Made by a program: the position numbers and the translations under genes. DNA of 43,341 bases. Origin: a virus. Below, piece by piece: positions 2,783-43,341 of the stretch. The notes under the pieces were generated by a model. The model was not told the origin of the DNA and ran no database searches. It saw only the letters and a list, made by a program, of their open reading frames with translations. Numbering within the stretch: the stretch's first letter is position 1; each line of letters starts with the position of its first letter. The stretch spans positions 1 to 43,341 of IMG/VR virus record IMGVR_UViG_3300022918_000020, one strand, 5' to 3'.

Positions 2783-2790
2783 TATATTTG
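2783..2790 (+). promoter_or_regulatory. TAnnTTTG promoter box ahead of KL1
   Basis: TATATTTG matches the Bacteroidetes -7 consensus exactly. Transcription would start near 2795, at the foot of the KL1 5' hairpin. An upstream TTG at 2755-2757 is further away than usual. Confidence 0.7.
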
Positions 2791-2875
2791 TTTTATCGGA
2801 GTCGTCGCCGAGATAAAAAACATTACAAATTCCCACAGGATAAAAGACGACGACCTTTTTGAATGTGGGTTTTTA
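2791..2875 (+). ncRNA. KL1: kissing-loop leader RNA with terminator-like 3' hairpin
   Basis: 5' hairpin: stem TTTATC (2792-2797) with GATAAA (2812-2817), plus GG/CC, closing loop AGTCGTCG (2800-2807). 3' hairpin: CCCACA (2832-2837) with TGTGGG (2864-2869), inner stem AAAAG (2842-2846) with CTTTT (2855-2859), loop ACGACGAC (2847-2854), then a T run. Loop 1 GTCGTCG is perfectly complementary over 7 nt to loop 2 CGACGAC. Unlike KL3-KL6 there is no middle hairpin. The HNH gene starts 6 nt after the T run. Pairing is seen directly; transcription and function are inferred. Confidence 0.7.
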
Positions 2876-6674: not shown

Positions 6675-6682
6675 TATATTTG
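6675..6682 (+). promoter_or_regulatory. TAnnTTTG promoter box ahead of KL2
   Basis: TATATTTG, overlapping the end of terL by position only, would start RNA near 6687 and produce the KL2 leader before the portal gene. No well-placed upstream TTG is seen. Confidence 0.65.
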
Positions 6683-6686
6683 CCAT

Positions 6687-6780
6687 TAACTGATGTGAAG
6701 ATGCATCATCCCGAATGTATGAGAGATCAATTCAATATTAATTTACCGCTCCCGGCTTCATTGTCGGCAGCGGTTTTTTA
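6687..6780 (+). ncRNA. KL2: kissing-loop leader RNA before the virion operon
   Basis: 5' hairpin TGATG (6691-6695) with CATCA (6704-6708), loop TGAAGATG. 3' hairpin ACCGCT (6745-6750) with AGCGGT (6769-6774), one C-C mismatch, inner CCGGC with GTCGG (one G-U), loop TTCATT (6757-6762), then six T. The loops share TGAA/TTCA, extendable to GTGAAG/CTTCAT with a G-U pair and one opened closing pair on each side. This is the weakest loop match of the six, but the architecture is the same. The portal ATG is 13 nt downstream. Confidence 0.6.
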
Positions 6781-19153: not shown

Positions 19154-19161
19154 TAATATTG
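19154..19161 (+). promoter_or_regulatory. Imperfect promoter box ahead of KL3
   Basis: TAATATTG differs by one base from TAnnTTTG. A TTG at 19131-19133 stands 20 nt upstream, within the usual Bacteroidetes spacing. RNA would begin near 19166. Confidence 0.5.
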
Positions 19162-19162
19162 T

Positions 19163-19281
19163 CTACTGAAATATAACAAGCGGAATATTAGAGGGATTCC
19201 AATTGTACGATATACAGAGTTGAATTAATAGTTTAACTTCTGAAACCGTGACCCGACGAACCTCTAATTTGTCGGGTTTTC
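19163..19281 (+). ncRNA. KL3: kissing-loop leader RNA after the tail operon
   Basis: 5' hairpin GGAAT (19182-19186) with ATTCC (19196-19200), loop ATTAGAGGG. Middle hairpin GTTGAAT (19219-19225) with GTTTAAC (19231-19237), using wobble pairs. 3' hairpin ACCCGACGAA (19251-19260) with TTTGTCGGGT (19268-19277), loop CCTCTAA (19261-19267), then T-rich DNA. Loop 1 TTAGAGG (19188-19194) is perfectly complementary over 7 nt to the whole 7-nt loop 2. The next ATG is 24 nt after the T run. Confidence 0.7.
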
Positions 19282-19304
19282 GCGTTTTATAAATAATTAG
19301 GATT

Positions 19305-27419: not shown

Positions 27420-27427
27420 TATGTTTG
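27420..27427 (+). promoter_or_regulatory. TAnnTTTG promoter box ahead of KL4
   Basis: TATGTTTG matches the -7 consensus; RNA would begin near 27431 at the base of the KL4 5' hairpin. Confidence 0.65.
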
Positions 27428-27525
27428 CGTACTGTTTTATCGGCTCGAAACGTCTAACAGTCAATTATCAAACTATTTAATTTGATAGGGAAAACCCGTA
27501 GCATTCGAGTGTTGCGGGTTTTTTC
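27428..27525 (+). ncRNA. KL4: kissing-loop leader RNA before GIY-YIG gene
   Basis: 5' hairpin ACTGTT (27431-27436) with AACAGT (27456-27461), inner CG/CG pairs closing loop GCTCGAAA (27443-27450). Middle hairpin TATCAAA (27466-27472) with TTTGATA (27481-27487). 3' hairpin AAAACCCGTAGCA (27491-27503) with TGTTGCGGGTTTT (27510-27522), 13 bp including wobbles, loop TTCGAG (27504-27509), then T run. Loop 1 CTCGAA pairs with the entire loop 2 TTCGAG (6 bp). The next ATG is 21 nt after the T run. Confidence 0.72.
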
Positions 27526-30719: not shown

Positions 30720-30731
30720 GTTGTATGTTTG
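30703..30731 (+). promoter_or_regulatory. Complete TTG / TAnnTTTG promoter ahead of KL5
   Basis: TTG (30703-30705) and TATGTTTG (30724-30731) are separated by 18 nt, the expected Bacteroidetes spacing. RNA would begin near 30736. Confidence 0.7.
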
Positions 30732-30826
30732 CGATACGTTAAAGACGGCTACCTTAAACGTAAAAATTAAACTAACAATTTAATTGGATAAAAGTCCCTT
30801 CATGTAGCCGTGTTGGGACTTTTTCT
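30732..30826 (+). ncRNA. KL5: kissing-loop leader RNA
   Basis: 5' hairpin TACGTTAAAG (30735-30744) with CTTAAACGTA (30753-30762), one mismatch, loop ACGGCTAC (30745-30752). Middle hairpin AATTAAA (30765-30771) with TTTAATT (30779-30785). 3' hairpin AAAGTCCC (30791-30798) with GGGACTTT (30815-30822), inner CA/TG pairs, loop TGTAGCCG (30803-30810), then T run. Loop 1 CGGCTAC pairs with loop 2 GTAGCCG over 7 bp. The gene start follows within 15 nt. Confidence 0.75.
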
Positions 30827-30840
30827 ATTTAATGAATATT

Positions 30841-34530: not shown

Positions 34531-34558
34531 TTGCAATAGAAATAAAGGTGTATATTTG
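34531..34558 (+). promoter_or_regulatory. Canonical TTG / TAnnTTTG promoter for the early region
   Basis: TTG at 34531-34533 and TATATTTG at 34551-34558 with 17-nt spacing form a textbook Bacteroidetes promoter. A near-palindrome around ATGCAT just upstream could be an operator. The leader to ATG 34591 is about 28 nt and ends in AATAGGAATT, a sequence reused before several early genes. Confidence 0.8.
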
Positions 34559-35126: not shown

Positions 35127-35314
35127 TAGAGCATAAGTGTTATACCGCAAATTGTGACGGTTGCAGGGTGGAATTTTTTACAGAGATTCAAGGAATAGAA
35201 ACGTATTACTTTTTAAGTAAAATAGAGCTAGAAGACGCTTTTTTCGATAAAGATTGGAAAAATATAGATGAAAAATATTATTGCGATAAGTGTTTAATAA
35301 ATAAAGAGAACTAG
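35117..35314 (+). CDS. Small zinc-ribbon-like protein
   Basis: A 65-residue protein with two cysteine pairs (CDGC near residue 13 and CDKC near the C-terminus), consistent with one zinc site, and an acidic, aromatic middle. It begins inside the previous ORF. The hairpin operator at 35312 begins at its stop codon. Confidence 0.6.
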   Translation: MPLVEHKCYTANCDGCRVEFFTEIQGIETYYFLSKIELEDAFFDKDWKNIDEKYYCDKCLINKEN

Positions 35315-35350
35315 CAATCAAATCAGGGGTGCGGCTGTAACGCATAATAC
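35312..35350 (+). promoter_or_regulatory. Intercistronic hairpin, copy 1 (loop GCTGTAA)
   Basis: Stem GTGCG (35329-35333) with CGCAT (35341-35345), one G-U pair, closing a 7-nt loop GCTGTAA. The surrounding bases (TAGCAA, TCAGGG, CGCATA) are shared with copy 2 at 39319. It lies between the stop of one gene and the start of the next, 8 nt before ATG 35354. Candidate protein-binding translational operator. Confidence 0.6.
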
Positions 35351-37406: not shown

Positions 37407-37473
37407 ACCCCGTCCACGATTTAACCTTAATAACGGTCGAAATGTGGTAATTTCAAGAGTTGATGGACGGGGT
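37407..37473 (+). promoter_or_regulatory. Long stem-loop leader before the ASCH gene
   Basis: A perfect 10-bp GC-rich stem, ACCCCGTCCA (37407-37416) with TGGACGGGGT (37464-37473), encloses 47 nt containing an inner hairpin GAAAT (37439-37443) with ATTTC (37450-37454). There is no T run, so it is not a simple terminator. It lies 15 nt before ATG 37489 and may control translation of that gene. Confidence 0.6.
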
Positions 37474-37488
37474 TAATTTATAAAAAAT

Positions 37489-39027: not shown

Positions 39028-39321
39028 ATGCAAACCTCAAACCCACTAATAAATCAATTTATTATCAATACCGTTTTAATCGATCCTATTCAGGATATTT
39101 TAAGTAAAATAAAAGAAGGCAGTTTTAGAGATTGCGATATCAAATGGTTGGATTCTAAATTTGAAGCTTTTATTAAATTTGCCGCAGAAACTTTGGGTAT
39201 TACAGGAATTATGCCAAGCGAAGTACTTGCTTCTAAAAGCTTTAAGCATTTAAACAATTATTCTAAAGATGTTTATTCAAAAAGATTTCAAACATTATTA
39301 GATTATTTCAAAAGTCTTTAG
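39028..39321 (+). CDS. Hypothetical protein
   Basis: A 97-residue, helical protein (INTVLIDPIQDILSKIKEG, then FIKFAAETLGITGIMPSEV). The centre may form a helix-turn-helix-like unit but has no strong signature. It is first behind its own promoter; the hairpin operator at 39319 starts at its stop codon. Confidence 0.55.
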   Translation: MQTSNPLINQFIINTVLIDPIQDILSKIKEGSFRDCDIKWLDSKFEAFIKFAAETLGITGIMPSEVLASKSFKHLNNYSKDVYSKRFQTLLDYFKSL

Positions 39322-39352
39322 CAACTTAATCAGGGATGCGGCTGTAACGCAT
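39319..39352 (+). promoter_or_regulatory. Intercistronic hairpin, copy 2 (loop GCTGTAA)
   Basis: Stem ATGCG (39336-39340) with CGCAT (39348-39352), loop GCTGTAA (39341-39347). Compared with copy 1 at 35312, a G-U closing pair is replaced by A-U, so the structure is kept while the base changes. It starts at the TAG of the previous gene and ends 6 nt before ATG 39359. Confidence 0.6.
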
Positions 39353-39358
39353 ATTTAA

Positions 39359-41796: not shown

Positions 41797-41813
41797 TTGA
41801 TTTTGGTTTGGTG

Positions 41814-41851
41814 AAAGCCGGAGTTTTGTAGAAATTTCTCCGGCTTTTTTT
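41814..41851 (+). terminator. Intrinsic terminator before KL6
   Basis: AAAGCCGGAG (41814-41823) pairs with CTCCGGCTTT (41838-41847), followed by a T run. It is the strongest stem in the window (10 bp, GC-rich) and insulates KL6 and the replication operon. Confidence 0.88.
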
Positions 41852-41879
41852 GTGGAATTGAAAAGAATTGTTATATTTG
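41850..41879 (+). promoter_or_regulatory. Complete TTG / TAnnTTTG promoter ahead of KL6
   Basis: TTG (41850-41852), N19, TATATTTG (41872-41879) fits the Bacteroidetes promoter consensus. RNA would begin near 41884. Confidence 0.7.
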
Positions 41880-41985
41880 TATTCGAGATCATCTACCTCA
41901 TTTAAGACTTTAGGTTAACCACCATTAACCAAGAACAACCCTTAAAAACCGAGTAGATGCGGCGATTAAGGGTTTTGTTTTTTTA
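41880..41985 (+). ncRNA. KL6: kissing-loop leader RNA before the replication operon
   Basis: 5' hairpin GAG (41885-41887) with CTC (41897-41899), loop ATCATCTAC (41888-41896); this stem is short. Middle hairpin GGTTAA (41913-41918) with TTAACC (41925-41930). 3' hairpin AACCCTTAA (41937-41945) with TTAAGGGTT (41966-41974), inner CCG/CGG, loop AGTAGATG (41952-41959), then a T-rich tract. Loop 1 CATCTAC pairs perfectly with loop 2 GTAGATG (7 bp). The operon's first ATG is 33 nt further on. Confidence 0.73.
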
Positions 41986-42017
41986 ATAGTTTACTGGAAC
42001 TTAAAACCTTTATAATT

Positions 42018-42239
42018 ATGGCAAAGTTTGAGTTACGTTTTAAGTGTTTGCTTCAGCCCAAAGATCATATTAAATGCGAATTCTCGTCAGAGTCAGAAGA
42101 ACCACTGATAGTTGTTTCTGGAGTTAATTCAGAAGAAGAATTTTCTATCTTTCTAGACAAATCTACCGCGATAAAATTCGCTAAAACACTTCGTACTGAA
42201 ATTAATAAAATTACAGAAAGCGAGGTTGATAATGTCTAA
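42018..42239 (+). CDS. Small hypothetical protein, first gene behind KL6
   Basis: A 73-residue protein with alternating beta strands (KFELRFKCLLQPKDHIKCEF, then EEPLIVVSGVNSEEEFSIFL) and a C-terminal helix. It overlaps the initiator-like gene by 8 nt. Family unknown. As the first gene of the replication operon it probably has an early role. Confidence 0.6.
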   Translation: MAKFELRFKCLLQPKDHIKCEFSSESEEPLIVVSGVNSEEEFSIFLDKSTAIKFAKTLRTEINKITESEVDNV

Positions 42240-42882
42240 ACTTGGCTATACATGGTATCCTAAAGATTGGGGTAACTCAGAAGCAGTTTTCGAAATGACT
42301 TTAAAAGAACGCGGTTTATATCGCGAGCTTATCGATTTGGCTATGCTTAACGATAATAAAACAGAAGTCAAAACAGATGTTTGGTGTAGGAAATTTGCAA
42401 TTACTCAATCTGAATTAAAAACGATTTTAGATCGATTAATAGAACTATGTGTTATTCAAATAGAATCTAACCTTTTATTTATTCCAAGCTGTGAAAGTAG
42501 GCTAAATTTAGCGCGCGGAGGAGCAAAAGGCGGAAAAGCTGGTAAGCCTACCCCTAAGCCTAAGTTAAAGCCTATTGAAAGCCTTGAAGAAAAAAATGTA
42601 AAGCCTACCCCTAAGCAAATAGAAAGTAAACTAAATATAAAAGAAAATGAAAATGAAAATAAAGAAAAAAATAATATTCCTGCTTTTTCTGAATTTTTAG
42701 CATACGCTAAGGAAAAAGAAAAAACCGTTAACCTTTCGGCTTTAAAAAACAAATACGATGCGTGGGTAGAAAACGATTGGAAAGACGGTAATAATTCCAA
42801 AATCACAAATTGGAAAATGAAATTATTGAATACTATGCCTTATCTGAAAAAAGATGAATCAAAACCTAAATTCTCAGGATAA
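42232..42882 (+). CDS. Replication initiator-like winged-helix protein
   Basis: A 216-residue protein. Residues 1-85 form a DUF1376-like/DnaD-style winged-helix domain (GYTWYPKDWGNSEAVFEMTLKER, then RKFAITQSELKTILDRL). A basic, proline- and lysine-rich linker follows (residues about 95-150, with repeated KPTPK), then a helical end (FSEFLAYAKEKEKTVNL) similar to C-terminal parts of replisome-loading proteins. It directly precedes the primase-helicase, overlapping by one base, so helicase loading at the phage origin is a sensible inference. ATG 42232 was chosen. Confidence 0.72.
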   Translation: MSKLGYTWYPKDWGNSEAVFEMTLKERGLYRELIDLAMLNDNKTEVKTDVWCRKFAITQSELKTILDRLIELCVIQIESNLLFIPSCESRLNLARGGAKGGKAGKPTPKPKLKPIESLEEKNVKPTPKQIESKLNIKENENENKEKNNIPAFSEFLAYAKEKEKTVNLSALKNKYDAWVENDWKDGNNSKITNWKMKLLNTMPYLKKDESKPKFSG

Positions 42883-43341
42883 TGGCACACATATTCGATT
42901 GGTCAAAAATAGAAACAAACAAGACTTCCGGCATCACAAAAGTTAAGTGTCCTGAATGTACTCCAACGCGTAAAAACAAATCAGACCGTAGTTTGTATGT
43001 TAGCTTTGGTTCTGGTGTTGCAAAATGCTTTAATTGCGAGGCTTTAAGTTTTCGGGATAGCGTTGAAAAGGAAACTTTGAAAAAAGATTATAAAATACCA
43101 GAGCAAACGTGGCGTAATTATACAAACGTTTCAGATGTATTTATTCAGGCATTAGAGAAACGGAAAATACGTCAAAGCACGATTATTCATTTTGCGGTTA
43201 CTGAAGAAGAATATTATCAACCCGCATTGCAGCGTAAGTGCCAAAATCTGGTCTTTAATTTCTTTGAGGGGGAAATGGTAGTAAATAAAAAATATCGTGG
43301 CGCAAACAAGTCATTTACGCAAAGCAAAGATACAAAGTCTA
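42882..43341 (+). CDS. Primase-helicase, N-terminal part (zinc finger plus primase), 3' partial
   Basis: The first 153 residues of the primase-helicase, running off the window end. A T7 gp4-like zinc motif is visible: C23-x2-C26 and C49-x2-C52, followed by the primase N-lobe (YKIPEQTWRNYTN, then LQRKCQNLVFNFFEGE). The ATG overlaps the preceding stop (TAATG). The frame continues into position 3 of the window across the ends with no shift, producing a protein of about 597 residues, in the family's usual range. Confidence 0.9.
   Translation, partial: MAHIFDWSKIETNKTSGITKVKCPECTPTRKNKSDRSLYVSFGSGVAKCFNCEALSFRDSVEKETLKKDYKIPEQTWRNYTNVSDVFIQALEKRKIRQSTIIHFAVTEEEYYQPALQRKCQNLVFNFFEGEMVVNKKYRGANKSFTQSKDTKS

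Follow-up and report, generated by a model that had tools for sequence, protein, structure and literature searches.

The DNA analysed here, referred to as the window, is a virus record of 43,341 bases whose ends join in frame inside the open reading frame of a primase-helicase, and hence it is probably a phage genome that is circularly permuted and near-complete. The leader studied, KL6, lies between the terminator of an upstream operon and genes for a 73-residue protein (predicted fold of low confidence, pLDDT 70), an initiator-like protein (open reading frame from 42226, first ATG at 42232) matching PHROG 270, and the primase-helicase (Table 1). KL6 therefore heads the replication operon, as a sequence-only reading of the same DNA had proposed. 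The upstream terminator, taken in that reading as the strongest in the window, is among the strongest, but the H3 hairpins of two other leaders, KL2 and KL4, are slightly better.

Table 1. Features of the replication operon, of its leader KL6 and of the other KL leaders in the window.
Feature	Position	Strand	Description
Upstream operon's terminator	41812-41852	+	11-bp stem, -16.8 kcal/mol
KL6 promoter -7 element, TATATTTG	41872-41879	+	consensus from PMC7366714
KL6 H1 hairpin, GAG-at-CATCTAC-CTC	41885-41899	+	3-bp stem GAG/CTC
KL6 loop a, CATCTAC	41890-41896	+	presented by H1
KL6 H2 hairpin, GGTTAA/TTAACC, linker	41913-41930	+	fold
KL6 H3 terminator-like hairpin and U tract	41937-41986	+	fold, terminator scan
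KL6 loop b, GTAGATG	41953-41959	+	apical loop of H3
First replication-operon gene, 73 aa	42018-42239	+	family recurs behind KL leaders
Initiator-like protein	42226-42882	+	PHROG 270, E 1.7e-4
Primase-helicase, N-terminal part	42882-43341	+	ORF continues in frame at 1-1334
KL1 leader, GTCGTCG/CGACGAC	2783-2864	+	before HNH endonuclease gene
KL2 leader, GTGAAG/CTTCAT	6675-6780	+	before portal gene; tentative
KL3 leader, ATTAGAGG/CCTCTAAT	~19154-19285	+	-7 box degenerate
KL4 leader, CTCGAA/TTCGAG	27420-27521	+	before GIY-YIG endonuclease-like gene
KL5 leader, ACGGCTAC/GTAGCCGT	30724-30828	+	relative in G002

The promoter-like element of KL6, with a -33 element TTTTTTTG placed 5′ of TATATTTG across a 19-nt spacer, matches in sequence comparison the flavobacterial-type form known in Bacteroidota (-7 TAnnTTTG, -33 TTTG; PMC7366714), and its -33 TTTG (41849-41852) is part of the T tract of the upstream terminator. 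H1 follows, then H2, which is not conserved in most relatives, and then H3, whose sequence over 41937-41974 is AACCCTTAA-aaa-CCG-a-GTAGATG-CGG-cga-TTAAGGGTT, followed by TTGTTTTTTT. The outer stem of H3 pairs 41937-41945 with 41966-41974, the inner stem is CCG/CGG, and the U tract runs to 41984. The leader extends to ~41986, at most a base or so from the end given by the sequence-only reading. Loops a and b are exact complements, with all seven of seven pairs Watson–Crick, a match reached in 2/200 shuffles of the leader, and the fold has a z-score of -2.73. KL6 is hence confirmed as a real element comprising promoter, H1, kiss and terminator-like hairpin. No alignable homologue of KL6 was found, so that covariation is not shown for this copy itself (one relative, L011, is 93% identical just 3′ of the leader but has a different KL as its leader); we place KL6 in the family described below because it has the family architecture and because of the shuffle result.

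Six KL leaders, KL1 to KL6, were recovered in the window independently of the sequence-only reading, and the loop pair differs in each. The kiss of KL2 has six pairs including one G–U and, taken alone, is not significant relative to shuffles. The relative of KL5 in G002 has a compensated kiss (CGCTAC/GTAGCG), and kiss and stems differ between the two while the linker is kept. Kiss sequences within one genome show a weak, not established, trend toward orthogonality resembling that of plasmid incompatibility.

For the search in related phages, we collected viral contigs that encode a relative of the initiator (80) or of the terminase (28), and scanned 1.28 Mb for promoter, H1, kiss and terminator. 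With redundant contigs included, 60 elements scored at least 36, compared to 4-7 in shuffled sequence, and 38 scored at least 40, compared to 0-2; the distinct elements at a score of at least 36 numbered 45. Chance origin is thereby rejected for the family, though not for KL2 alone. A TTG lies 17-23 nt 5′ of the -7 box in 25/39 elements (background, 14%). Upstream of the initiator, a KL scoring at least 35 was present in 22 of 40 distinct regions, counted after removal of near-duplicates, compared to 1/800 shuffles, and the minus strand of these regions had none at that score. In roughly half of these distinct regions the automatic scan registered no KL, and some of them hold variants; the KL design with other spacing could be read by eye in L029, L048, L051, L066 and L079. 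Cultured phages have the element too: KLs precede a small ORF, the initiator region and primase genes in Flavobacterium phages morran9-1 (GTGAGAAG/CTTCTCAC) and lillamy9-1 (GTGAGACG/CGTCTCAC), and a small ORF and a helicase gene in Flavobacterium phage mumin9-1 (GTGGAACG/CGTTCCAC), and they occupy the equivalent site in Cellulophaga phi19:1 (GTACGAC/GTCGTAC) and elemoA_7-3A (TGAGAGC/GCTCTCA). In three more remote phages whose terminases are related (FPSV-S2, TCUEAP1, BS162P3), no KL rose above the shuffled level, and a genome scan of host chromosomes yielded two distant relatives of the initiator, both without a KL.

Some leaders of other design were also seen. In Nekkels_1 (L172), the leader at ~840-1000 appears to kiss a single large terminator loop twice, by TTGGAA/TTCCAA and by GTCTAAC/GTTAGAC. 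Upstream of the initiator in L069 and L071 there is no KL; one terminator arm is formed by the 5′ end of the transcript, and a segment of the terminator loop (CGTAGT or AAGTAGTT) complements a stretch just 3′ of the U tract, a pattern that we read as a different pseudoknot leader.

Behind KLs, the first gene may belong to the ~75-residue family and have the initiator gene next to it, or may itself encode an initiator; other first genes encode HNH endonucleases, small proteins, DEAD-type helicases, ERF-like (annealing) proteins and VirE/primase-like proteins, the helicase, ERF-like and primase-like names being read by eye from translations rather than from profiles. Two close relatives, G001 (L112) and G002 (L111), carry a helicase module in place of the replication module; the breakpoint is the terminator upstream of the KL6 site, and the exchanged module brings its own KL (TCTGACG/CGTCAGA). 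A device specific to the replication operon is rejected, since KLs also head HNH and GIY-YIG endonuclease, helicase, ERF-like and primase-like genes and, weakly, the portal gene. Judged by the genes that it precedes, KL is a general phage leader RNA without replication specificity.

The kissing sequence differs almost everywhere yet remains complementary. An element's own loops were complementary over at least 7 nt in 23/31 elements, compared to 2.3% of swapped pairs, the 31 having been chosen for their kiss. Covariation was counted in two alignable sets with the pseudoknot written out. In the KL1-type set (A2: the window, L109, L105, G005 and mumin9-1), 99% of cells were paired and nine pairs, three of the seven kiss pairs among them, had changed on both sides, a result that 0/500 shuffles reached, and pairing fell to 26-51% when partners were slid. 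In the cultured-phage set (A5: morran, lillamy, mumin and L056), four of the eight kiss pairs had changed on both sides, all of them paired. In alignable homologues, compensatory changes affect the kiss as well as the stems of H1 and of the terminator, and such covariation is direct evidence of loop–loop pairing in the RNA. The family thus has the complementary, covarying hairpin loops of a kissing interaction, and the kiss proposed in the sequence-only reading is real by this family-wide measure.

One recurring form has a loop of 8 nt in which a single unpaired base precedes the seven kissing bases; in H3 this loop is closed by an inner stem of 3-5 bp, which an internal loop separates from the outer terminator stem. 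No fixed loop sequence was found across the 45 distinct elements, in which the start of loop a shows only a preference (G or C, then T), and in these loops the conserved pocket nucleotides expected of a riboswitch are lacking. A pair of DNA operators, that is, inverted repeats bound by one protein, is rejected, as the sequences differ, lie inside covarying hairpins and occur on one strand only.

A U tract was not required in the search, and at least five T in eight are found 3′ of H3 in 32/37 elements (background, 24%), with some U tracts interrupted; a stable stem directly followed by a U tract is what characterises an intrinsic terminator, which H3 matches in sequence form only. The gap between H3 and the first ATG is at most 25 nt in 26/46 elements (range 4-52 nt), which leaves no room for a second promoter, and given this short gap and the position of H3, any transcript into the gene, whether from this promoter or from upstream, crosses H3. 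In this respect KL is arranged like an attenuator, with a terminator-like hairpin that lies after the promoter and that every transcript meets before the first gene. For KL6, the sequence-only reading held that its terminator-like hairpin must be crossed to express the operon, and promoter and position bear this out; a separate promoter downstream, which it had named as evidence against itself, is not present in the sequence, the nearest plus-strand TAnnTTTG 3′ of 41872 being at 43001, within a gene.

We consider it slightly better than an even chance that KL6 is a conditional intrinsic terminator (attenuator), one of the promoter-proximal leader RNAs that form a family in Flavobacteriaceae phages. 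RNA polymerase would start just 5′ of H1, which would fold first, and the H3 loop, on emerging, would pair with that of H1. H3 would then terminate transcription, with the kiss leaving both stems intact and aiding both the nucleation and the stability of the terminator instead of breaking it up. In favour of this reading, the inner H3 stems are marginal (0 to -1.8 kcal/mol), whereas the a:b pairing is worth -7 to -12 kcal/mol as a duplex energy, not a true kissing energy. Read-through would increase once some trans factor or condition occupies or removes H1; this factor or condition would read KL architecture because KL sequence is not conserved, and several operons would be gated in common. 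The most economical reading of these sequences is a terminator that the 5′ hairpin assists and that gives way to read-through when H1 cannot take part. The structure and the KL family are well supported; termination at H3, its control and any role in early timing are inferred, so that the switch put forward in the sequence-only reading is only partly supported. The H1 stem of KL6, of only 3 bp, counts against attenuation. No conserved alternative (antiterminator) pairing was found in the covarying KL sets, and hence a switch is not visible in sequence.

Loops without sequence conservation also imply that a shared regulator would need to recognise geometry. We entertain, as a possibility to which we give rather less than even weight, that KL is a new RNA class defined by architecture alone, a 5′ hairpin that kisses the loop of the terminator in the same RNA, whose kissing geometry is read by a factor from phage or host, making it a genome-wide termination switch with several copies per genome in Flavobacteriaceae phages. 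If so, the switch would span replication, recombination and other operons.

The kiss could instead act as an antiterminator, the H1 loop capturing the emerging H3 loop and delaying or preventing zipping of the terminator, so that read-through would be the default and loss of the kiss would lead to termination. Loop b leaves the polymerase ahead of the 3′ arm of H3, and the kiss, by the energies given above, outweighs the inner stem by a wide margin and so could act first. However, inner and outer H3 stems covary with the kiss, and therefore the one structural state that is conserved is kiss and terminator together; in known kissing complexes a kiss and a closed terminator are sterically compatible. 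We regard this antiterminator as unlikely.

Somewhat less likely still is a small RNA acting in trans, with transcription ending at H3 to yield a stable, compact, kiss-closed RNA of ~100 nt and with downstream genes expressed by leakage. A stable RNA could well be built in this way, with a hairpin at the extreme 5′ end, a 3′ terminator and a tertiary contact that locks the molecule internally, and kiss sequences vary strongly between phages, but both loops are engaged within the molecule, the elements travel with their operons and lie 9-52 nt ahead of the start codon of the first gene, and a conserved target-like single-stranded sequence is absent. We also doubt strongly that KL works like put of phage HK022, as a folded leader, H3 included, that would bind RNA polymerase and let it pass terminators further along the operon. 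The location directly 3′ of phage promoters and the two-hairpin anatomy are those of put, but put is ~70 nt long, lacks a terminator and exists as two copies sharing sequence (PMC9378689), whereas KL ends in a terminator-like hairpin with a U tract and has no shared sequence. A stabiliser of the mRNA 5′ end or a ribosome-positioning element unrelated to termination is very improbable, since, although the distance from H3 to the start codon is short and in many cases fixed, spacing to the ATG varies (4-52 nt) and the conserved U tract and the A-tract/U-tract terminator form would be left unexplained.

KL leaders have partial parallels in known systems. In lambda, phage operons are likewise gated by terminators 3′ of promoters, but antitermination by nut/N and Q depends on known proteins and on boxA/boxB elements or DNA sites that are conserved, none of which was recognised in KL. 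RNAI and RNAII of ColE1 form a 7-bp loop–loop kiss, as does KL6, and Rop reads the geometry of that kiss more than its sequence; the ColE1 kiss is intermolecular and controls the replication primer, whereas that of KL is intramolecular. The pT181 attenuator (plasmid repC leader with its antisense RNA; PMC3753616) resembles KL6 in leading a replication gene, and KL in general in that hairpin-loop pairing decides, or in KL would decide, terminator formation and that the loop or hairpin sequence can vary, changing specificity. In pT181 the loop pairs with an antisense RNA that is a molecule of its own, whereas in KL the terminator loop finds its partner in a hairpin of the same transcript, and KL, unlike pT181, recurs within a genome and also heads operons that do not serve replication. 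HK022 put, also a short two-hairpin RNA near phage early promoters, suppresses downstream pausing and termination and has no terminator of its own (PMC9378689), in contrast to KL, in which H3 is terminator-like and carries a U tract and which lacks a sequence consensus. The crcB and pfl motifs are riboswitch-type leaders with conserved nucleotides that overlap a terminator (PMC2864571); the KL 5′ UTR structure likewise overlaps an intrinsic terminator-like hairpin but conserves architecture with almost no fixed sequence.

Rfam gave no matches in the whole window, a single tRNA in 15 loci, most with KL elements, and, for the KL6 region at a permissive E-value, only matches far below the gathering score, and we found no description of a KL-type leader in the open-access literature. 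KL looks like an unrecognised variant of attenuator or leader RNA, and a new class is a real possibility. KL is a recurrent, unannotated and putatively regulatory RNA in a group of phages that matters ecologically but whose gene regulation is little understood; being present in cultured phage–host pairs, it can be tested directly. The family also amounts to a natural library of terminator-like hairpins that kiss within one molecule through varied loop sequences, with which the effect of tertiary contacts in nascent RNA on transcription termination can be studied.

Other features of the genome deserve mention. Between H3 and the ATG of the gene for the ~75-residue protein lies a conserved segment (41987-42017), conserved at the same site in L002, L036, L056, L072, L164 and L170. 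In several relatives it forms a small hairpin with a loop of about wATCTTAAA and varying stems (CGGT/ACCG, TGGT/ACCA, CCGT/ACGG, AGGT/ACCT, TGAT/ATCA), and it may be an operator of that gene. Promoter-like sites without a KL, at 34551 and 38983, share a leader repeat, D2 (...AATAGGAATTATG), and are followed by blocks of small genes, possibly KL-free early operons. A 35-nt repeat of 89% identity (35312-35346 and 39319-39353) contains a hairpin, ATGCG-GCTGTAA-CGCAT, directly 3′ of the stop codons of two genes, and an intergenic inverted repeat, CACCCCGTCCAC...GATGGACGGGGTT, is found at 37410-37474.
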